IMG/VR virus record: IMGVR_UViG_3300049793_000100
Span: 1 to 44,930 of that record
Origin: a virus
DNA: 44,930 nt
Reading direction: 5' to 3' (one strand)
Within the stretch, counting starts at the first letter, position 1. Every line of letters starts with the position of its first letter. The notes under the pieces are model-generated. The model was not told the DNA's origin. It did no database searches and worked only from the letters and a program-made list of their open reading frames with translations. Made by a program: the position numbers and the translations under genes. Shown here one piece after another: positions 5,475-43,202 of this stretch.

Positions 5475-6148
5475 ATTGGGAGTGCTGCCAGCTTGGCCAG
5501 GACCGCAGCACGCGCCGCCTCCCCTGCCCCGTTCGACCTGGCCGCCATACTGTCCTGGGCGATCTTGCGCAGGGCTTCCACGTCATCCACATGCACGTTG
5601 AACTTATAGAGCCCCTGGGCGCCGCCACGGTCCCCTGTGGGCAGCAGGCCGGGGTAGACGTCCCCCATCATCAGCACTGGATAGCGGGTAATGCCGAACG
5701 CCCATGCCGCCGCCTTGATGAACTCTAGGTCGACATCGAAGCAGCGTATCTTTACTTGCACTAGATTGGCTACGGCATCTTTGCGGGCCTCCTTTGCCGC
5801 TACCTCTTCGGGCGTGGCATAACCGTTGATGCAGCCGGCGCACGTTCCACTTTTCGTGTACCTCTTTGAAATATGGCCGTTCTTACATGCCACGCCAGTA
5901 AAATAAGTGTTTTCCCCCACCCTTTGGGCATCGCTGCGGGACGCGAGTTGTCCACTACCATCACCCAATATAACGGGCTCTACTTTCTTTGTCGGGTCAA
6001 GGATCGGTGCGTTATTGGCGCGAATGCAGCCGGCGCACGTCCCGCTTGAGGTATATCTTTTTGCGATGTGGCCATTTTTGCATGCCACGCCAGTAAAATA
6101 AGTTTTTTCAAACGCTTTCTTGGCGTCTGCGCGAGTTATGAGAGTCAT
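5450..6148 (-). CDS. Protein with two zinc-knuckle repeats, possible accessory or homing-type gene
   Basis: The start was set at 6148 because a ribosome site (TTGGAG) precedes it; the frame is open further upstream. The 232-residue product has two near-identical modules (KTYFTGVACKNGHIAKRY with SGTCAGC, then NTYFTGVACKNGHISKRY with SGTCAGC). Each has Cys, His, and CxxC suitable for one zinc ion. This module is known at the N-terminus of some phage HNH-type proteins, but no HNH or GIY-YIG catalytic motif follows. The C-terminal part is an unrecognised domain (DVDLEFIKAAAWAFGITRYP, VYPGLLPTGDRGGAQGLYKF). Its position beside terminase and an AT-rich spacer, plus the opposite strand, suggest acquisition as a separate unit. 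Confidence 0.65.
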   Translation of the reverse strand: MTLITRADAKKAFEKTYFTGVACKNGHIAKRYTSSGTCAGCIRANNAPILDPTKKVEPVILGDGSGQLASRSDAQRVGENTYFTGVACKNGHISKRYTKSGTCAGCINGYATPEEVAAKEARKDAVANLVQVKIRCFDVDLEFIKAAAWAFGITRYPVLMMGDVYPGLLPTGDRGGAQGLYKFNVHVDDVEALRKIAQDSMAARSNGAGEAARAAVLAKLAALPIEKAPPKG

Positions 6149-27736: not shown

Positions 27737-30085
27737 ATGCAATCAACGAACCAGCCGGATAAAGTCTCAACCCCATTTGCTGACATCGGCGTCAAGCGTC
27801 CAATTCCCGAAGCGTCCCAAATCGGTATCACCGATGGTGCGGCATCGTTCACGGACGGCTTTCCGCCAAAGACTTTCTTGCCGCTCGCAGTGGGCGGCGT
27901 TCCGCCGGCCGGCGAAGATTTCAACGGCATTCTGTTCCTGATCACGGCTATTCAACAATGGCAATCGGCTGGCGGCGGCTTCAAGTACGACGCCACTTTT
28001 GCGACCGATATCGGCGGGTATCCGAAGGGTGCGCGGCTGGATAATGCAACGCACGATGATATCTGGATTAACACGGTCGAGGACAACACCACGAATCCCG
28101 ATACGGGCGGCGCGGGATGGGTTGCGCTGTCGGAACTCGGCAAGTTCAAAGCGACCGGCGTCGGCTCCATCAACATCATTGATTGCGGCGCGAAAGGCGA
28201 CAACAGTCACGACGATTATCCGGCATACGTGCTGGCTAAAACGCTGATCGGCAGCGGGCGCATTGTGTGGCCGAACACGTCGGTCAACATCTACAATCTG
28301 ACCAGCTATCCAAATGCCGCCGACATTCTGGAAGGCCCATTGCTCGATGTGGCGGAAGGCGTCATTATCAATATTCCGCAGGCGCTGGGGCTGGATGCGA
28401 CTTACGGCAACGGGTCGATTCGCGTCGTGCGCGCGACTCGCTTTCATCAGTCGGTCAAGGACGTGACGTTCTATGCATCCCCTCAATCGAGCGAACACGT
28501 GCAAGAGCGCACGCAATGGCCTACCGTGTCGGAAGCTGACCGCGCCAGCGTTACGGCCATCGATTGCACCGTGGCGACCCTGGGCAACATGAAGCCCAAG
28601 AAAATCGATTGGGACGTGCCGACCGATGTTTTCGTAACGGATGCGTTCACGTCGACGACCACGAATACCGCCGTGTGCAGCACGGTAGGTGGTCAACTAC
28701 ACCTGGGCATGATCGACTTGGAACCGGGCGAAGCCGTAAGCGCCAGTTTCGCCGGCTATACCGCGAGTTCCATCGGTTTCGCAATCATTCATTGCGAGGG
28801 CGGGTACTACGGCATGTATGGCAGCAACGTCAACGGCATCCTGACGACGTTCTATAAATTGTCCGGTGTTGCTCGCCCGACCCCGGTTGCACTCACGCCA
28901 GAAACTTACCAGCACGCCAGTTACTTCCCGCTCGCGTCGGTGATGACTATCAAGAAACTGGACGCCCGCCACGCGGCGTTTTGCCTGAACGGCGTTGCAG
29001 TCTATACCGTGGAAACCGCGAGCGATATTATCTCGGCAGGCTTCGGCAATTATCCGGTTTCGTCGTCGACGCTGACGCTGGTCGACGTCATGAAGCATTC
29101 GAACTTGCGCCCCCTGAACGGAATGACGGGCATCAACCTGGCCGTGTTCGGCGACTCGATCACTGCTGGCGACGGCGCACAGCACGTCTACGGCTGCTGG
29201 CCTGAACAGCTCAAAGCGAATTTTGACGGCGCTGCCGGCCTGCGAATCAAGACCGTTCAAAATTACGCTGTGCCTGGTGCGACCACGGGCGCGCAAAAAG
29301 TGCTTTGCACCTCGTTGGCCATCGCCGACGCCAATATCGTTCTTGCGCTGCTCGGCACCAACGATATTCAGGGCGGCATTTCGGTTGCCTCGTTCTTGTC
29401 GTCCATCGGCGAAATGATCGACACTTGCGTTGCTGCGGGCAAGCCGATCATCTTCGGTATCCCACCAATGTTTTACGGCATGGTGCAGGCAAGCGGGCGT
29501 GGCAACAACACGCTGAACTACGAATTGGGCGCACCTTACCGCACCGGCCTGATGCGCCTGTGTGCATCCCGTGGCGTCAAGTGTATCGACACTCTCGGCG
29601 GCTTGGGTCCGATTCTTGCGACCTATCTTGACGCAAGTTTCAGTCAAGACCCCCTGGTGTATGACAACGTGCATCCGTCGTTCTTCGGCCGCAAGATGCT
29701 CGCGCAACTGTTCGGCAATGCGATCCTGGGCGAAATCGCCAAGAATACAGCCGTGGCCGAATTTGGGACGTTGCTCCCTACTTCCGGTTTGGCCGCAGGA
29801 TCGCTGTTCACGACCGAACCGGGGCGGTTAAGCCTCAACCAAAACGTTGGTATTACCAGCGTGTCGGGGGTGATCGATATTCTTTCGGGCATCGCTGACG
29901 GCACGATTATCTACACTCTGCCCGAACGCGCCTGGCCTGACCGTTCCCGCCGGTTCATTGAAGGCACCAGCGTCGGCGTTACGACATGCCTGCTCACTGT
30001 TGGCACGACGGGCGCGATTCGTATCTACGGGGCGCCTGCTGCCGGCGGCTATGTGAACCTTGAAATGACTTACGCAACGCGTTAA
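27737..30085 (+). CDS. Tail fibre/receptor-binding protein with SGNH esterase domain
   Basis: 782 residues. The N-terminus (ADIGVKRPIPEASQIGITDG, FPPKTFLPLAVGGVPPAGED) is the common virion-attachment part of fibres. A beta-helix start follows (IIDCGAKGDNSHDDYPAYVL). From about residue 465 is an SGNH hydrolase: FGDSITAG (Ser about 474), LGTNDI (Asn about 540) and YDNVHPS (Asp about 641, His about 644). Such domains deacetylate surface polysaccharides. The protein is probably the host-range determinant, with enzymatic trimming of O-antigen or capsule. The substrate cannot be read from sequence. Confidence 0.85.
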   Translation: MQSTNQPDKVSTPFADIGVKRPIPEASQIGITDGAASFTDGFPPKTFLPLAVGGVPPAGEDFNGILFLITAIQQWQSAGGGFKYDATFATDIGGYPKGARLDNATHDDIWINTVEDNTTNPDTGGAGWVALSELGKFKATGVGSINIIDCGAKGDNSHDDYPAYVLAKTLIGSGRIVWPNTSVNIYNLTSYPNAADILEGPLLDVAEGVIINIPQALGLDATYGNGSIRVVRATRFHQSVKDVTFYASPQSSEHVQERTQWPTVSEADRASVTAIDCTVATLGNMKPKKIDWDVPTDVFVTDAFTSTTTNTAVCSTVGGQLHLGMIDLEPGEAVSASFAGYTASSIGFAIIHCEGGYYGMYGSNVNGILTTFYKLSGVARPTPVALTPETYQHASYFPLASVMTIKKLDARHAAFCLNGVAVYTVETASDIISAGFGNYPVSSSTLTLVDVMKHSNLRPLNGMTGINLAVFGDSITAGDGAQHVYGCWPEQLKANFDGAAGLRIKTVQNYAVPGATTGAQKVLCTSLAIADANIVLALLGTNDIQGGISVASFLSSIGEMIDTCVAAGKPIIFGIPPMFYGMVQASGRGNNTLNYELGAPYRTGLMRLCASRGVKCIDTLGGLGPILATYLDASFSQDPLVYDNVHPSFFGRKMLAQLFGNAILGEIAKNTAVAEFGTLLPTSGLAAGSLFTTEPGRLSLNQNVGITSVSGVIDILSGIADGTIIYTLPERAWPDRSRRFIEGTSVGVTTCLLTVGTTGAIRIYGAPAAGGYVNLEMTYATR

Positions 30086-35488: not shown

Positions 35489-36592
35489 TTAGGCCAGCAT
35501 CAGCCCGTTTTGAATCAGCGTCACGTCAGTCCACCCGCCGGCAATCAGGGTTTCATACGGTGCGCCCTGTGCCAATGCCGTCATCTGGCGGCCGACTGGT
35601 GCTGCAGGCGGGGCCATTGGATAGCCAGGGGGCGCGGCAGGGTAACCCGGTGGCTGTGCAACTGGCGGCGGCATCTGCACGAAACCCGTATTAGGCATAA
35701 CGGGGATTGGTGCATTGGCAGTCGGCGCAGGGTATCCGGGCATCGGCACAGAACCAGCGGGGGCCAAAGGGGCAGGGTAGCCCGGTGGCATTGGCGCCGC
35801 TGCCGGGGCTTGAGCCATCGGATAACCGGGAGGTGCGGCCGGATAGCCTGGCGGAACTGGTGCGGCCGGATAGCCTGGCGGAACTGGTGCGGCAGCAGGC
35901 ATGCCCGGCGGGGCCATTGGGTAGCCAGGGGGCACAGCGGCGGGCATCGGCAGGGAACCGGCCGGCGGGGTCATAGTCGCACCCTGTGGCAATGCTGCCA
36001 CGCCAAAGCCAGCGCTCGCCACATCGGGGCCAAACGTGATTTCAGTACCGTACGCACGGAAGCAAATTTGCGAATGGTTGAGGTAAATGCCGGGCTTCTG
36101 GTCGTTCATGTTGCTGTCGGCGGTCATGCTGACTTCGACAAAATAGCCGGGCTTGACGAAATCTTTTTGCATAATCTGCACGAAGCCGCCGCCCTCGGCC
36201 TGGTAAATCTTCGGCGCAAACCCGCCCGAAAATTTCAGAATCCAGTTACCCCGGAAACCTTCGGTGTCGCAGTTCTTGCGGCCCTTGCGCTCAGGGTTCG
36301 GGCGGGCGTCGTCGCCATCTTCGATCTTCCACGAGAAACGGTCGCTCGCTGCGAATTGAGGGAACGCTTGATTGCCCAGCGCCCACAGCTTGCCGCCCCA
36401 TTCGGTATGCGCCCAATGAGGTTCGCCCTGTTTCGGGATGGCCAGCTTGAACCAGTAGTCGACGCGCTGCTGCCCTTTGTTGATGCCGTTCTTGACAACC
36501 AGCGGATTGCCCTGCTGATCGGTCGTCGACGGGTCGTACAGCGAGCCCTGAACGATCCGACCGACCGGGGTAGTAATAGCGATTTTTGCCAT
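35489..36592 (-). CDS. Single-stranded-DNA-binding-like protein with PPGYP-repeat tail
   Basis: 367 residues. The first 190 form a beta-rich domain (MAKIAITTPVGRIVQGSLYD, DYWFKLAIPKQGEPHW, GFAPKIYQAEGGGFVQIMQK, PGYFVEVSMTADSN) resembling phage OB-fold ssDNA-binding proteins of the DUF2815 type. It is followed by about 130 residues of disordered sequence with around eight PPGYP motifs, then a short folded end (APYETLIAGGWTDVTLIQNG). Position between exonuclease and polymerase supports replication or recombination. OB-fold assignment is inference from pattern and context. Confidence 0.7.
   Translation of the reverse strand: MAKIAITTPVGRIVQGSLYDPSTTDQQGNPLVVKNGINKGQQRVDYWFKLAIPKQGEPHWAHTEWGGKLWALGNQAFPQFAASDRFSWKIEDGDDARPNPERKGRKNCDTEGFRGNWILKFSGGFAPKIYQAEGGGFVQIMQKDFVKPGYFVEVSMTADSNMNDQKPGIYLNHSQICFRAYGTEITFGPDVASAGFGVAALPQGATMTPPAGSLPMPAAVPPGYPMAPPGMPAAAPVPPGYPAAPVPPGYPAAPPGYPMAQAPAAAPMPPGYPAPLAPAGSVPMPGYPAPTANAPIPVMPNTGFVQMPPPVAQPPGYPAAPPGYPMAPPAAPVGRQMTALAQGAPYETLIAGGWTDVTLIQNGLMLA
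35832..35885. repeat. 27-bp tandem duplication in PPGYP region
   Basis: Two identical 27-base units (35832-35858 and 35859-35885), each starting GGTGCGGCCGGATAGCCTGG, with a partial third copy. It keeps frame and adds nine residues per unit, showing that the linker grows by slippage or recombination. Confidence 0.8.
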
Positions 36593-36607: not shown

Positions 36608-37732
36608 TTATTTGCCAAAAATGCGGCGCACATCGGCGGGATTATCGGAAACCAATTTTATTGATCCCGGTGGAGTGATACTGTAGGCTTTAATGACGCT
36701 TTCGTCAACGCCGAGTTTTATCGCTTGCCCTGGCGTCTTGGTTCCCGGCTTCGATAGGTCAACGCCCATGACAGAACCGAGCGCGATAATTTGCGCATGC
36801 GGGACTATCCAGACCGTGCGGCCGTAAGTGCTTTCGACATGATGATACGGCAGACGATAGCCGCGCTTGACGTGGGCTTTGACTGTCTCTTGCATGCCGT
36901 CGACGCGCGACTGCAAGCGCTCTAACGCTCTTTCCATGAACCGCAGTTCCAAGCTTGCGGCTTCGGGCGCCAGTTCGACCGGGGACGACGTTACGGCGAA
37001 TTCCGCATCGGAATACGCGGCTTGCTGTAGCGCTGCGCAGGCGTGGCGGCCAGGGCAATGCCTGCACTCGCTGTTGGTCATGGCAGTCGGGTTCGGCCCC
37101 AGTGCTGCGAGGGCGGCAGCACGCAAGATATTGCGCTGCGCGCGAAGGTCCGACGCTCGCAATGTCCATGTGCGCACCGGAGCGCCTTTGTAAAAGCATC
37201 GAGGCTGAATGACCGTAAAATTGACAATCAAATGTTGGTCAAGCGTGCCCGCTGGCGTGTTCAAGAGCTGCGCGAGAAAATCAATGATCCCGTCAATATA
37301 TGCCACACCCTGATCGTTCTCGAATTCGTCGACGAAGCGATGCCCGAATTTATAATCTAGCACTTCGAGCGTGTGGCCGTAGTGCGCCCAAATATCGGGC
37401 GTGCCCCAGCAATGCTCGTTGATACCTGGGATCGCTACGGGCTGTTCGACATAAAGCGGCGTGCCGGCCGGGATGCGCTGTGCCACAGTGTCGACGACCA
37501 GCTCGCCCCCTTCTATCATTTCCTCGGTAACGACGTTGTTATTCGGCGTCACCTGGCCTTCGCAGACATCGCGGCCCGCCAGCATTTCGGCGAACACCCA
37601 ATGCGCCGCCGTACCTTCCAGACTTTCGGGCGTGTCGGGCTGCGGGTAAAGCCGGTTCATGGTCACCCACATGGCGCAGCGCCGCCACGCACCCGCCCCG
37701 GAGGGCGGCAAGATTGAATGTGCGCCGGCCAT
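36608..37732 (-). CDS. PD-(D/E)XK nuclease, DUF2800 / Cas4-RecB-like
   Basis: 374 residues. It opens SILPPSGAGAWRRCAMW with Cys19. The nuclease core is EGTAAHWVFAEML, then CWGTPDIWAHYGHTLEVLDY followed by KFG, i.e. the D...(L)DYK active-site pattern, and QGVAYIDGI. Three cysteines follow in ECRHCPGRHAC. One N-terminal and three C-terminal Cys are the iron-sulfur arrangement of AddB/Cas4-like nucleases. It probably processes DNA ends for recombination. It lies next to the ssDNA-binding-like gene. Confidence 0.85.
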   Translation of the reverse strand: MAGAHSILPPSGAGAWRRCAMWVTMNRLYPQPDTPESLEGTAAHWVFAEMLAGRDVCEGQVTPNNNVVTEEMIEGGELVVDTVAQRIPAGTPLYVEQPVAIPGINEHCWGTPDIWAHYGHTLEVLDYKFGHRFVDEFENDQGVAYIDGIIDFLAQLLNTPAGTLDQHLIVNFTVIQPRCFYKGAPVRTWTLRASDLRAQRNILRAAALAALGPNPTAMTNSECRHCPGRHACAALQQAAYSDAEFAVTSSPVELAPEAASLELRFMERALERLQSRVDGMQETVKAHVKRGYRLPYHHVESTYGRTVWIVPHAQIIALGSVMGVDLSKPGTKTPGQAIKLGVDESVIKAYSITPPGSIKLVSDNPADVRRIFGK

Positions 37733-37734
37733 GA

Positions 37735-38607
37735 TTAGCTACGGGCCGCAATGATAGCGTCGACGCTGGCCGCGATGTGCGGAATCAGGTCGAGGCGATT
37801 ACCTGCCAGCGGCAGCGCCGGGACGCCGTATTGCTGGCAGCATTGCGTAACTTCCTCTTGCGTGATTTTGCCGGCAGGGACGGCCGCCGCAACACGGCCG
37901 ATCAGCGCGACATACGCCAATTTCGGGTCAGCGGTAGAGGAAGGGGCCGCAGCCGGCGGCAGGGGAACCGGGGCGGCGCTCGGCAATCCCGCAACAGCCC
38001 CGGCAGGCATCGGGGAAGATGCAAAAGCATTCGGCGGCGCTGGCGGTGCGGCGGGGGCGCCCATCAGTTGACGCAATTCCGCTTCGACCTGATCGACTAA
38101 AGCCTGATCGGTTTTCGGCTTTTTGCGCCAGGTTCCATCGGCGACGGTCGCGCGGCTGCCGGCATGAATACGGCTGTCCCACGGGAAGCCGCGTTTATCG
38201 ACTACTGCAAGGTTTGCCGTAGGGGGTGCAACAGGAGGCGCCACGTTCGCGGGCGGCGCTGCAGGCAGTCCGGGGACGGGCGCGTGATTGGTCGAAAAAG
38301 GCATCGCCACGGGGGCAGTCGACGCAAGAGGTGCATCCGCAGTAGAGGGGGCAATTGCCCCCGGCGGCAAAGGGGCAGGTTTCCCGAACGCCGCGAAGGC
38401 TGCAGGGTCACCGGGCGGGCTGAAAGCAATTGCGGCGTCGGTCAGATCGCCATCACGCGCCAGGTCCGCAACAGGGTCGACGGGGGCGGCAAACTGCGGC
38501 ACGCGGGCGAATTCTTTCGCTACCGGATATGCCAGAATAAAACCGGCTACCGCTTCGCGCTGCTCTTGCGTCAGACCCGAAGGGTCAACATGGATTTGCA
38601 TACTCAT
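37735..38607 (-). CDS. Conserved replication-operon protein with Ala/Pro-rich linkers
   Basis: 290 residues, first gene of the minus-strand replication operon (promoter 38648-38676, AAGGAG ribosome site). Low-complexity Ala/Pro segments separate a conserved core VDKRGFPWDSRIHAGSRATV with ADGTWRKKPKTD, and a C-terminal helical unit (VTQCCQQYGVPALPLAGNRL). The core is recurrent in phage genomes beside nuclease or recombinase genes but has no established function. A scaffold-like replication accessory is plausible. Confidence 0.65.
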   Translation of the reverse strand: MSMQIHVDPSGLTQEQREAVAGFILAYPVAKEFARVPQFAAPVDPVADLARDGDLTDAAIAFSPPGDPAAFAAFGKPAPLPPGAIAPSTADAPLASTAPVAMPFSTNHAPVPGLPAAPPANVAPPVAPPTANLAVVDKRGFPWDSRIHAGSRATVADGTWRKKPKTDQALVDQVEAELRQLMGAPAAPPAPPNAFASSPMPAGAVAGLPSAAPVPLPPAAAPSSTADPKLAYVALIGRVAAAVPAGKITQEEVTQCCQQYGVPALPLAGNRLDLIPHIAASVDAIIAARS

Positions 38608-38633: not shown

Positions 38634-38662
38634 TTGACAGCAAGCGCAGTATTAACCATAAT
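38634..38662 (+). promoter_or_regulatory. Plus-strand promoter for the methyltransferase
   Basis: TTGACA (38634-38639) and CATAAT (38657-38662) are spaced by 17. The operator 38662-38675 covers the start site, with the same geometry as at 782-823. The ATG of the methyltransferase is 30 bases downstream of the -10. Confidence 0.8.
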
Positions 38663-38676
38663 AACGTCACCGTCAA
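38648..38676 (-). promoter_or_regulatory. Minus-strand promoter for the replication operon
   Basis: On the minus strand TTGACG (38676-38671) and AATACT (38653-38648) are spaced by 17. It overlaps the divergent methyltransferase promoter, so the two cannot easily be used at once. The operator occupies its -35. Confidence 0.7.
38662..38675. promoter_or_regulatory. Palindromic operator, site 2
   Basis: TAACGTCACCGTCA matches TRACG-N4-CGTYA. It lies on the start site of the plus-strand promoter and on the -35 of the minus-strand promoter, so one bound protein could control both transcripts. Confidence 0.65.
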
Positions 38677-38691
38677 CAGGATATCGCGCAA

Positions 38692-39585
38692 ATGAACGTT
38701 TTAAATTTAGATTGCCGCATGGGTTTATCGATGCTCCCTGATAACAGCGTCGACGCGATTCTCACCGATCCGCCGTACGAAATCGGATTCATGGGCAAGG
38801 CGTGGGATTCGACCGGAATTGCTTATGACGTCAACATGTGGCGCGAAGCGCTGCGCGTGCTGAAACCTGGCGGCCACATTCTCGCGTTCGGCGCCGCCCG
38901 CACCTATCACCGGCTGGCGTGCGCTATCGAGGATGCTGGCGCCGAAGTGCGCGATTCGATAGCTTGGCTATATGGTAGCGGATTCCCGAAATCGCAGAAA
39001 GTGGGCGACGGGTGGGGTACTGGAATGAAGCCTGCGCATGAGCCGATATGTGTTGCACGAAAGCCGCTTTCGGAAAAGACTATCGCGGCGAATATGGCGC
39101 TGCATGGCGTCGGCGGCATCAATATCGAGGCATGCCGCGTGCCCATCGACCCGGTCGCAGATGCGTCGCAACTGCGCACCATGAGCGTCAGTCAGCACCA
39201 CGGCCGCGACGGCTGGGGCATGAACACTGCAGGGGCAAATCCTGTTGCGCGCGTGCTGGGGGAGGAAGGGCGCTGGCCGGCGAATCTGATACACGACGGA
39301 TTGGGCGAAGAATGGGCCAGGTTCTTCTACTGCGCCAAGCCGAGCAAGAGCGAGAAAGGCGCGGGCAACGATCATCCGACAGTCAAGCCTGTGGCGCTCG
39401 GGCGCTACCTGGCCAAGCTGGTGTGCCCTGCCGGCGGCGTGATCCTTGATATGTTCGCCGGCTCGGGGTCGTTCGGCGTGGCCGCCCAGCTCGAAGGCTT
39501 CCAGTACATCGGGTTCGATGATGACCCGGTTTCCTGCGAGCTGGCGAATCGTCGCTTAATGCTTCCGCTTACCGTTACCGCGTAA
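38692..39585 (+). CDS. DNA methyltransferase (beta-class, DPPY)
   Basis: 297 residues. Motif IV TDPPYEI is near the N-terminus (residues 25-31) and the AdoMet-binding motif I DMFAGSGSFGVAAQLEG near the C-terminus, after HPTVKPVALGRYL. This order is that of beta-class amino-methyltransferases; DPPY favours N6-adenine, but N4-cytosine cannot be excluded. No restriction endonuclease is adjacent, so it is an orphan enzyme. The convergent RAMA gene overlaps its 3' end by 30 bases. Possible roles are protection from host restriction or epigenetic control of phage promoters. Confidence 0.9.
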   Translation: MNVLNLDCRMGLSMLPDNSVDAILTDPPYEIGFMGKAWDSTGIAYDVNMWREALRVLKPGGHILAFGAARTYHRLACAIEDAGAEVRDSIAWLYGSGFPKSQKVGDGWGTGMKPAHEPICVARKPLSEKTIAANMALHGVGGINIEACRVPIDPVADASQLRTMSVSQHHGRDGWGMNTAGANPVARVLGEEGRWPANLIHDGLGEEWARFFYCAKPSKSEKGAGNDHPTVKPVALGRYLAKLVCPAGGVILDMFAGSGSFGVAAQLEGFQYIGFDDDPVSCELANRRLMLPLTVTA

Positions 39586-39921
39586 GGTGCTGATCTTGGA
39601 GAAATCGCGCGCACCGGGAAACTTGGCCGCCCAAAAATCCCAGCCATTCATGGGGCGGCCGGTAATCTTGACGGCGGCGGCCGACACGCTCGGGAAGCGT
39701 TCGCCGAGCATTTCGATTGCGCCGTCGCGTACATGGCCCCAATACGGCCGATCCTTATACCACGCCATAAGCGCCGTACCTTCGGGAAAAATGACACCTG
39801 GCGCAGCTTCCATGCCTTCGGGCGTCACGCCTAACACTTCGCGCAAAATTGCGTCGGCACTTTTCTTGCTATCTAAAAGGGCTTTGGCAACGGCGGGGCT
39901 TACTGGAATTGTCTTACGCAT
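39556..39921 (-). CDS. RHH + RAMA domain protein, SeqA-like modified-DNA reader candidate
   Basis: 121 residues. ATG 39921 was chosen for its ribosome site (TTAGGAG); the upstream open frame crosses two operators. The N-terminus MRKTIPVSPAVAKALLDSKK with SADAILREVLGV resembles the ribbon-helix-helix arm of SeqA. The rest, FPEGTALMAWYKDRPYWGHV, FPSVSAAAVKITGRPMNGWD and FW, matches the RAMA domain (restriction enzyme adenine methylase associated), predicted to recognise modified DNA. It is encoded against the methyltransferase, with overlapping 3' ends. A regulator that reads the phage's own methylation is the natural hypothesis. Confidence 0.7.
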   Translation of the reverse strand: MRKTIPVSPAVAKALLDSKKSADAILREVLGVTPEGMEAAPGVIFPEGTALMAWYKDRPYWGHVRDGAIEMLGERFPSVSAAAVKITGRPMNGWDFWAAKFPGARDFSKISTLRGNGKRKH

Positions 39922-39957
39922 TTTGCAAACTCCTAAAAAGTTGAGTGGGTCGATTAT

Positions 39958-39971
39958 TGACGACTCCGTTA
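39958..39971. promoter_or_regulatory. Palindromic operator, site 3
   Basis: TGACGACTCCGTTA fits TRACG-N4-CGTYA. TTGACG here (39957-39962) can serve as a plus-strand -35, with CACAAT 19 bases later, for the SF2 helicase gene. It also precedes the divergent RAMA gene. Confidence 0.55.
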
Positions 39972-39995
39972 ACAAGCGGCGCACAATTGCAGTAT

Positions 39996-40009
39996 TGACG
40001 ATCTCGTTA
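39996..40009. promoter_or_regulatory. Palindromic operator, site 4
   Basis: TGACGATCTCGTTA, 38 bases centre-to-centre from site 3, in the same orientation; TATTGACGA...CGTTAACAAG is shared by both. Two sites in tandem between divergent genes suggest cooperative binding or looping. Confidence 0.55.
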
Positions 40010-40032
40010 ACAAGAGCCAATTTAAATTTCCT

Positions 40033-41790
40033 ATGACTACGCCATTACGCCCCTTTCAGCAAGCACTAGAGCGCGACATTTATGCAGCGTGGAACACGCC
40101 CGGAGTCGTCAACGTCATGCCCGTGGCGGCCACGGGTTCGGGTAAAACCGTCGTCCTGTCAAAGTTACTTTATGATGAGCCCGGCGCGTCGGCGGCCATA
40201 GCGCACAGGCAAGAATTGGTGAGTCAGATTTCTATCGCCCTCGCGCGCAACGGTGTACGGCATAGGATCGCGGGCGCTAAAAAAGGTTCCAATCTCGTGC
40301 GCGTAATCTCGGCGCTGCAGGTTGCCGAGCTGGGCTATTCGTTCCTGGACCCGAACGCGAAAACCGGCGTCGGCGGCGTGGACACGATTATTCGCATGGA
40401 CCCTAACGATAGTTGGATGAAACAGGTACGCTTGCAAGTGCAGGACGAAGCGCACCACGTCTTGAAAGAAAATAAATGGGGCAAGGTTGCCGCGATGTTC
40501 CCCAATGCGCGCGGCCTGTTCCCGACTGCCACGCCAGCGCGAGCGGACGGGAAGGGGCTCGGGCGTCATCATGACGGCATCGTCGACCAGATGGTGCTTG
40601 CGCCGTCGATGCGCGACATCATCAATATGGGCTACCTGACGGACTACCGCATTTTTGCGCCGCCCTCCGATCTGGATTTGGGCGAGGTTGCTATCGGCGA
40701 TTCGGGCGAGTACGTCAATTCGCAACTGCGAACGGCCGTGCGTAAATCCCACATCACGGGCGATGTCGTCGACCATTATCTGAAAATTGCGCCAGGCAAG
40801 CTGGGCGTAACGTTCGCTGTCGATGTGGAAACCGCCGGGGATATCTCGGCCGCCTTCCGCGCGCATGGTGTACCCTCCGAAGTGGTCAGCGCCAAGACGC
40901 CGGACGGGCTGCGGGCCGACATCCTGCGCCGCTACAAGCGCCGCGAAATCCTGCAGCTCGTCAATGTGGACCTGTTCGGCGAAGGCTTCGACCTTCCCGC
41001 AATCGAGGTCGTGAGCTTCGCCAGGCCGACCGCATCATTCCCGCTCTACGTGCAACAGAAGGGCCGCACGCTGCGCCTGATGCTGACGGCCGAAGAGTTA
41101 CGGGATTACGACAGACTGACGGACGACCAGCGGCGCGGGGTGATCGCCCGAAGCGGCAAGCCCTATGGCATCGTCATCGACCATGTCAACAATGTGGTCC
41201 GTCATGGCCTGGCGGATGCTGGGCGCGTCTGGACGCTCGACCGGCGCGAGCGCGGCGCCGCCGGCAAGAAATCGGACGCGATACCGCTGGCCCCGTGCCT
41301 CAATCCTGTATGCATGTTTCCTTATGAGCGCGTATTGCCAAAATGCCCGTACTGCCACACGCCACGGCCGCCGCCGAAAGCGCGCAACGGCCCGGAGTTC
41401 GTCGACGGCGACCTGACCGAATTGGACCCTGATGTATTGCGCCAGATGCGTGGCGAAATCAGCCGCGTCGACGGGGAGTTCTACGCGCCCAAGGGGCTCG
41501 ACCAAATGGCCGCGATGGGCGCCCGCAAGCATCACCACGCCAGGCGCGAAGAGCAGCGGGCATTAAGCAATGCAATTGCCTGGTGGGCGGGCCTGGAAAG
41601 CGCACAGGGGCGCGGGGAGAGCGAAAGCTATCGCCGGTTCTATTTTAAATTCGGGCTCGATGCTGCTAGCGCCCGAACCCTCGGCACGCGCGAGGCAGCA
41701 GAATTGACGCAACGAGTCAACGCCGAGTTACAAAAATATGGCATTGACGGGACCGTCAACGCTGCCGCATACTTTGCCCATCATCAATAG
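40033..41790 (+). CDS. Superfamily 2 DEAD/DEAH-box helicase
   Basis: 585 residues. Motif I MPVAATGSGKTVVLSKLL (about residues 29-46), motif II VQDEAHHV, motif III LFPTATPAR and motif VI-like QQKGRTLR are present. A C-terminal zinc site follows (PCLNPVCMFPYE with KCPYCH) and a final helical region. It belongs to the UvrB/SSL2-like phage helicases, which act in replication initiation or recombination. The ATG has no good ribosome site (AATTTAAATTTCCT), so translation may be weak or from a leaderless transcript. Confidence 0.9.
   Translation: MTTPLRPFQQALERDIYAAWNTPGVVNVMPVAATGSGKTVVLSKLLYDEPGASAAIAHRQELVSQISIALARNGVRHRIAGAKKGSNLVRVISALQVAELGYSFLDPNAKTGVGGVDTIIRMDPNDSWMKQVRLQVQDEAHHVLKENKWGKVAAMFPNARGLFPTATPARADGKGLGRHHDGIVDQMVLAPSMRDIINMGYLTDYRIFAPPSDLDLGEVAIGDSGEYVNSQLRTAVRKSHITGDVVDHYLKIAPGKLGVTFAVDVETAGDISAAFRAHGVPSEVVSAKTPDGLRADILRRYKRREILQLVNVDLFGEGFDLPAIEVVSFARPTASFPLYVQQKGRTLRLMLTAEELRDYDRLTDDQRRGVIARSGKPYGIVIDHVNNVVRHGLADAGRVWTLDRRERGAAGKKSDAIPLAPCLNPVCMFPYERVLPKCPYCHTPRPPPKARNGPEFVDGDLTELDPDVLRQMRGEISRVDGEFYAPKGLDQMAAMGARKHHHARREEQRALSNAIAWWAGLESAQGRGESESYRRFYFKFGLDAASARTLGTREAAELTQRVNAELQKYGIDGTVNAAAYFAHHQ
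41744..41773 (+). promoter_or_regulatory. Promoter and operator (site 5) inside the helicase end
   Basis: TTGACG (41744-41749) and CATACT (41768-41773) are spaced by 18. The perfect palindrome TGACGGGACCGTCA (41745-41758) covers the -35, the same layout as at 42836. It would drive the gene at 41799 and the cassette after it. Confidence 0.6.
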
Positions 41791-42835: not shown

Positions 42836-42864
42836 TTGACGCTATCGTCACCGACGCACATAAT
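42836..42864 (+). promoter_or_regulatory. Promoter and operator (site 6) of the mini-TetR gene
   Basis: TTGACG (42836-42841) and CATAAT (42859-42864) are spaced by 17. The perfect palindrome TGACGCTATCGTCA (42837-42850) overlaps the -35. This fits autoregulation by the product of the next gene. Confidence 0.75.
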
Positions 42865-42893: not shown

Positions 42894-43202
42894 ATGATTA
42901 AACGACTGCAGCCTGACAACCGCAAACAGGAAATTTTGCAAGCCGCCATCCGTGTGGCCGCTCGCTCGGGCGGCTGGGCGAAGCTGACGCGCGACGCCGT
43001 GGCACGCGAGGCCAAATGTTCGGAGGGTTTGCCTTCCAAGTATTTCGGCACCATGGTTAACTTCAAACGCGCCATCATGCGCGCAGCCGTGACCGGCGAA
43101 CACCTGGCCGTGATCGCGCAAGGTATCGCGGCCGGCGACAAGTCGGCCCTGAAAGCCAGCAAGGAATTGCAACAGAAAGCCCTCGCCACGCTGCAAGGCT
43201 GA
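42894..43202 (+). CDS. Mini-TetR-type DNA-binding protein, candidate repressor
   Basis: 102 residues. It matches a TetR N-terminal domain: RKQEILQAAIRVAARSGGWA (helix 1), KLTRDAVAREAKCSEGLPSK with YFG (helix-turn-helix and helix 4 start), and FKRAIMRAAV. Only about 50 residues follow, so the ligand-binding domain of normal TetR proteins (about 200 residues) is missing. TetR proteins bind palindromes as dimers, and a perfect palindrome lies on its own promoter. It is the leading candidate for the protein that binds the six operators. The assignment of sites is inference. Confidence 0.8.
   Translation: MIKRLQPDNRKQEILQAAIRVAARSGGWAKLTRDAVAREAKCSEGLPSKYFGTMVNFKRAIMRAAVTGEHLAVIAQGIAAGDKSALKASKELQQKALATLQG

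Follow-up and report, generated by a model that had tools for sequence, protein, structure and literature searches.

The closest described counterparts of the small phage gene considered here are SeqA of Escherichia coli (PF17206), the RAMA domain of the Caulobacter methyltransferase CcrM (PDB 6PBD), the metazoan RAMA protein MPND, and the stand-alone DUF2924/DUF4357 proteins of plasmids and prophages, while its neighbor belongs with the orphan beta-class methyltransferases of phages (phrog_67), which are common in mycobacteriophages. The RAMA domain is predicted to be a reader of adenine methylation, or more broadly a binder of modified DNA. In CcrM, it is essential for the activity of the enzyme and binds the non-target strand, with non-specific DNA phosphate contacts, and three of its residues, Ser315, Asn330, and Trp332, are reported to bind DNA phosphates and to be required for activity (PMC6787082). 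MPND, in which the same Pfam domain is fused to an MPN domain, also binds DNA; its preference for 6mA is disputed, with no such preference found in one study (PMC9963953), and the literature on the preference of RAMA for modified DNA is mixed more generally (PMC9963953, PMC11037411). The RAMA studies that we found concern the domain within larger proteins, and their results conflict; in the literature searched, which comprised open papers, no description of a protein joining RAMA to a ribbon-helix-helix (RHH) module was found.

The gene lies in the window, by which we mean the whole stretch of 44,930 nucleotides that was analyzed, and which derives from a contractile-tailed phage with terminase, portal, tail sheath, and tape measure genes, together with replication genes encoding a phage DNA polymerase, a Gp2.5-like single-stranded DNA-binding protein (SSB), and a helicase. 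Two anchors delimit the locus, namely the gene of a 290-aa proline-rich protein on the left (phrog_11133; 37735-38607, minus strand) and that of a ResIII/SF2 DNA helicase on the right (phrog_16; 40033-41790, plus strand). Between them stand a methyltransferase gene (38692-39585, plus strand) and the gene of a 121-aa protein, P0001 (39556-39921, minus strand), which overlap tail to tail by 30 bp (39556-39585), in agreement with the convergent arrangement described in an earlier note on this DNA. Our preferred account as a whole explanation, although we hold it tentatively and give it rather less than an even chance, is that this small protein is a methylation-tuned accessory DNA binder, built of an RHH module and a RAMA domain and belonging to the early regulon. 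Several further features of the window deserve mention in their own right: the Gp2.5-like protein (35489-36592) carries a long tail of PPGYP repeats at its C-terminus, and its gene contains an exact 27-nt tandem repeat (35832-35885); the C-terminal half of a 782-aa tail-fibre-like protein (27737-30085) shows weak similarity to lipases/esterases; and two direct 86-nt copies, 83% identical, are found at 5829-6109 in a minus-strand gene, the product of which matches endonuclease VII-like families.

The 297-aa methyltransferase can be placed with the orphan beta-class amino (N6A or N4C) DNA methyltransferases. It matches PF01555 (E 3.7e-28) and phrog_67 (1.9e-67), and its motif IV (DPPY, residues 26-29) near the N-terminus precedes motif I (FAGSGS) in the C-terminal part, which is the motif order of the beta class. 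Its core motifs, alike in the phage orphan enzymes, are kept across an eight-way alignment, and it is about 50% identical to many mycobacteriophage enzymes. The window copy differs from its close relatives, such as those of L091 and L126, in lacking two internal stretches totaling about 110 residues, which the relatives keep as variable, TRD-like sequence, so that its target cannot be read off from them. A sigma-70-like promoter (TTGACA-17-CATAAT, 11 of 12 positions matching; 38634-38662, plus strand) precedes the gene. No cognate endonuclease was found next to it, its neighbors being the 290-aa protein, the small gene, and a helicase common to relatives with and without the methyltransferase; a restriction-modification system was rejected on the absence of an endonuclease partner, and the orphan status claimed in the earlier note, with its DPPY and FAGSGS motifs, is upheld.

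The small gene runs from an ATG at 39921 to a stop at 39556, with an AGGAG Shine-Dalgarno-like element (39930-39934, minus strand) eight bases before the start; a 154-aa version from a TTG start is unneeded and would traverse the operators discussed below. It is not an antisense artefact, since full-length relatives are encoded by other phages, at 36-68% identity, and by bacterial plasmids, at about 35%. They came to light only through the helicase locus and through alignments of the family; when P0001 was used by itself to scan IMG/VR and GTDB, no relatives were returned. By profile and model, the C-terminal two thirds of the protein are a RAMA domain (residues 36-117; 39571-39816, minus strand), an assignment that is firm once homologues are included. 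Taken singly, P0001 matches DUF2924 (2e-6), RAMA (6.8e-5), and DUF4357 (1.5e-4), all under the Pfam cut-offs; RAMA (PF18755) was matched by all seven phage homologues scanned (best 2.9e-9), one of which (G018/L108) clears the curated cut-off with 36.6 against 35.2 bits, and the NCBIfam CcrM model was matched by four of the ten members of the wider family alignment. The AlphaFold model (mean pLDDT 84) was compared by Foldseek with 350,542 PDB chains, and the two chains of CcrM came first (6pbd_B, probability 0.97, E 0.06) and second (6pbd_A, probability 0.96, E 0.13), so that both the fold search and the homologues sustain the RAMA domain that had been proposed for the protein. None of the PDB and BFVD fold matches falls below E 0.001, which we count against our preferred explanation; the BFVD search gave chance-level matches only, as did phmmer of P0001 alone against the PDB (dodecins, E 0.5), and profile matches to PlyP35 in the PDB (E 0.1) were taken for chance similarity. 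PADLOC matches to PDC-S14 span mainly the RAMA stretch. In the profile alignment with CcrM, S78, N92, and W94 fall on the phosphate-contacting Ser315, Asn330, and Trp332, and R114 is, by eye, the counterpart of Arg350, while the position of His317 is taken by Ser80. Fold and contact residues are thus alike, and the phage domain differs in standing on a separate polypeptide with an RHH module rather than fused to a methyltransferase.

The first 30 residues (39832-39921, minus strand) likely adopt a SeqA-like RHH fold, according to the AlphaFold secondary structure and the family profile: a strand-forming segment is followed by helices at residues 9-18 and 22-30, with no strand in the monomer model. 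When a profile of ten RHH-RAMA proteins was compared with 177,635 PDB sequences, the N-terminal domain of SeqA ranked first, aligned from residue 1, at a weak E of 0.046; two of the ten members matched Pfam SeqA_N, at best with 0.013, and three matched VAPB_antitox, an antitoxin family, at best with 7.6e-4, and P0001 alone gave no RHH match in the Pfam scan. The SeqA-like start claimed in the earlier note is therefore supported, weakly, by the family and not by the single sequence. Both SeqA and the phage protein are small, with a C-terminal DNA-binding module behind an N-terminal one that here is weakly SeqA_N-like (MxTIEVD...SADxxLRxxL), and they share a candidate link to adenine methylation and replication. 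The phage protein differs from SeqA in ending in RAMA, with no match in its 121 residues to the GATC-binding C-terminal domain, and in adjoining swappable phage methyltransferases. Taken furthest, this likeness would make it a phage SeqA analogue in which a CcrM-type RAMA replaces the GATC reader; such a protein would read adenine (or N4-cytosine) methylation independently of sequence, serve any swapped-in methylase, and sequester newly replicated phage or host DNA; we regard this more specific form as rather unlikely.

Comparison with related phages bears on how closely the small protein and the methyltransferase are bound to one another. A search with the neighboring helicase returned 34 related viral loci, in which the slot between the 290-aa gene and the helicase is variable. 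The 121-aa family is present in 11 viral records, including the window, always in the same slot beside the helicase and in the same orientation, and nine of the 11 have in that slot a methyltransferase of one of three types, with one more having methyltransferases nearby. The tail-to-tail pair with a DPPY enzyme was found in six records (the window, L091, L092, L126, L127, and L001), the overlap being 27-39 bp in L091, L092, L126, and L127 and about 15 bp in L001. Elsewhere, the RAMA gene accompanies a SNF2-like helicase and an SPPY methyltransferase (L099, L104) or a DLPY methyltransferase (L132), or stands 3.6 kb from two methyltransferases (L108), and in one 50.9-kb record (L110/G020) four Pfam models (N6_N4, D12, Dcm, and N6_Mtase) gave no match. 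The recurrent overlap in six phages would suit a split CcrM-like enzyme, in which the RHH-RAMA protein is the detached tail of CcrM, a trans-acting DNA-binding subunit of the adjacent RAMA-less methyltransferase that the RHH dimerizes, all the more as RHH-RAMA proteins align with the C-terminal portion of models for CcrM-type and type II methyltransferases and CcrM itself needs its RAMA domain and binds the non-target strand with it (PMC6787082). Such an enzyme is nevertheless improbable, given that one RAMA lineage accompanies DPPY, SPPY, and DLPY methyltransferases and, in L110, none that was found, and that RAMA is absent beside many close methyltransferases (L093-L097, L100, L111, and L112). 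The comparison of L091 with L092 points the same way: their helicases are 96% and their RAMA proteins 92% identical, whereas their methyltransferases share only 60%, so the methyltransferase has been exchanged and the RAMA gene kept. On this sequence comparison, the small protein may be a partner to DNA marking in general, retained while the enzyme is swapped. Cassettes of a SNF2-like helicase and an SPPY-type methyltransferase occupy the slot of the DPPY enzyme at L099:2226-4570, L104:995-3312, L098:632-2988, and L101:205-2549, and by this exchange the slot is, as far as gene content can tell, a modification or anti-defense hotspot. At L120:7907-7972, in an otherwise empty slot, a remnant of a methyltransferase start (72% over 22 residues) suggests recent loss of a cassette.

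A second thread linking the two genes is a 16-bp operator, TTRACGNNNNCGTYAA, which occurs without mismatch at 39957 and 39995 and with one mismatch at 38661, in accordance with the earlier note, which had placed two copies in the RAMA promoter region and a third in the methyltransferase promoter. The site ATAACGTCACCGTCAA (38661-38676) lies at the end of the methyltransferase -10 box, divergent with the 290-aa gene, and TTGACGACTCCGTTAA (39957-39972) and TTGACGATCTCGTTAA (39995-40010) lie between the RAMA gene and the helicase, upstream of both; others are TTGACGCTATCGTCAC (42836-42851), 58 bp upstream of a TetR-like gene, and GTAACGATACCGTCAA (809-824), upstream of a ParB-like gene at 846. 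A further operator of the TTGACGNNNNCGTCAA regulon is present at 36693. With up to two mismatches, the window contains 21 sites against 4.9 expected. The two operators in the promoter region of the RAMA gene and the one in the methyltransferase promoter, together with an architecture that resembles SeqA, could be taken to indicate an autoregulatory epigenetic switch, in which the RHH-RAMA protein binds the operators, reads their methylation, and times replication and the expression of its own writer. The relatives speak against it, however: with one mismatch allowed, 43 operators were counted in RAMA-plus loci, where 1.2 were expected, and 68 in RAMA-minus loci, where 3.8 were expected; the density is about the same in RAMA-less relatives (2.1 against 2.6 per 10 kb), well over chance in both groups and at homologous promoters; and L110, which carries RAMA, has no operator near that gene. 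A better candidate for the operator-binding protein is a predicted 102-aa DNA-binding protein (42894-43202, plus strand) similar to TetR_N (0.0077, below the cut-off), since its gene is near-universal, being found in 37 of 38 records, and in many of them is preceded by an operator about 57 bp upstream; it is probably the repressor of the early genes. We therefore rejected operators as RAMA binding sites as a leading idea and consider the switch highly improbable. As judged from their distribution across the phage group, the TTGACGNNNNCGTCAA operators define a regulon that takes in the entire early region, in which methyltransferase, RAMA gene, and helicase are co-regulated, and this co-regulation does not imply that RAMA reads the operator.

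Counts over whole records give the pairing a different weight from counts over the slot. With L001 excluded because it had been retrieved by a methyltransferase search, a methyltransferase is present somewhere in nine of 10 RAMA-plus and 21 of 28 RAMA-minus records, which is no enrichment (p=0.65); within the slot, the figures are eight of 10 and 10 of 28 (p=0.027, with related records counted as independent). Either gene also occurs without the other, a methyltransferase without RAMA being found in L093-L098, L100, L101, L111, and L112, and strict co-occurrence was accordingly rejected on this record-level result and on L110. The pairing of the RAMA gene with the methyltransferase is loose. 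Of the writer and stand-alone reader envisaged in the earlier note, the recurrence of the pair in related phages stands; exclusive partnership does not, with one RAMA lineage beside three enzyme types, and neither does a shared operator as the mark of a two-gene switch. The record-level baseline is also what one would expect of the closest rival to our preferred explanation, namely a generic nucleoid-like or DNA-protecting protein, blind to methylation, which would use the backbone contacts of RAMA, for example, to hinder host nucleases, and which would lie near methyltransferases because they share an anti-defense slot carrying swappable modification cassettes. Published RAMA domains agree with such a protein in binding without base specificity, and in MPND 6mA had no effect (PMC6787082, PMC9963953).

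RHH-RAMA proteins outside this phage group bear on the same rival from both sides. The architecture is rare by sequence search and extends beyond this methyltransferase pair: five full-length matches turned up in a strict search covering 398 genomes from a single phylum, and tblastn located it in eight of 72,556 plasmids and in one isolated phage. Three GTDB matches to the phage alignment were set aside as not being RHH-RAMA proteins, L134 and L138 because they resemble GIY-YIG/RAMA proteins and L136 because it is a larger fusion containing RAMA. Stand-alone examples on plasmids and in some genomes are annotated as DUF2924/DUF4357 or hypothetical proteins. Members such as WP_194732013.1 of Rhizobium sp. 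007 have the same architecture at full length; the bacterial and plasmid proteins have a canonical TIEIDFxV...YNDVIRRLL start, and the phage group forms a distinct, shorter branch. Most bacterial loci inspected have no methyltransferase neighbor, which favors the methylation-blind binder. What weakens it, beside the enrichment within the slot, is repeated adjacency to unrelated methylation genes in separate elements: in addition to the three beta-class types, the RHH-RAMA gene adjoins a Dam-class methyltransferase in Rhizobium phage RHph_X2_26 and in contig L088, an N6 methylase and an S subunit on a plasmid of Rhizobium, and, on plasmids of Rhodococcus, DUF499/DUF1156 operons, DUF499-centered operons being described as BREX-related systems with an N6-methyltransferase (PMC12839542). 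On two plasmids, the gene is convergent with the DUF499-DUF1156-helicase operon (L156:12001-18274 in pRJH2; L155:1621-7124 in pGD02.2.1). We judge the methylation-blind binder somewhat unlikely.

Recurrence beside unrelated methylation genes is the best hint of a link to methylation, and loose coupling is the best hint against a dedicated pair; the reading of a mark, as opposed to one sequence, would fit both, and on that ground, with modest confidence, we prefer a general methylation-tuned binder to the split enzyme and the autoregulatory switch. According to this preferred explanation, the 121-aa protein would be an accessory early phage DNA-binding protein, expressed through the TTGACGNNNNCGTCAA operators as part of an early regulon that also includes the methylase and the replication genes, most likely under the control of the small TetR-like protein. 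Its SeqA-like RHH module would probably dimerize or oligomerize it, and its RAMA domain, the counterpart of the DNA-phosphate clamp of CcrM, would bind DNA with little sequence specificity; the RHH fold, dimerization, and DNA binding are all argued from homology. The protein would then most likely coat or cluster phage (or host) DNA in a manner dependent on, or tuned by, methylation, with an effect that is SeqA-like yet not tied to the mark of one enzyme, and with replication timing or the shielding of newly made DNA as the output. A methylation-reading switch is possible. A 121-aa RHH-RAMA protein beside a candidate writer that is naturally exchanged among phages offers a compact test of whether RAMA reads a mark, a sequence, or neither, and if it does read the mark, these phages would possess a SeqA-like protein that evolved outside the Dam/SeqA lineage and reads with another domain.
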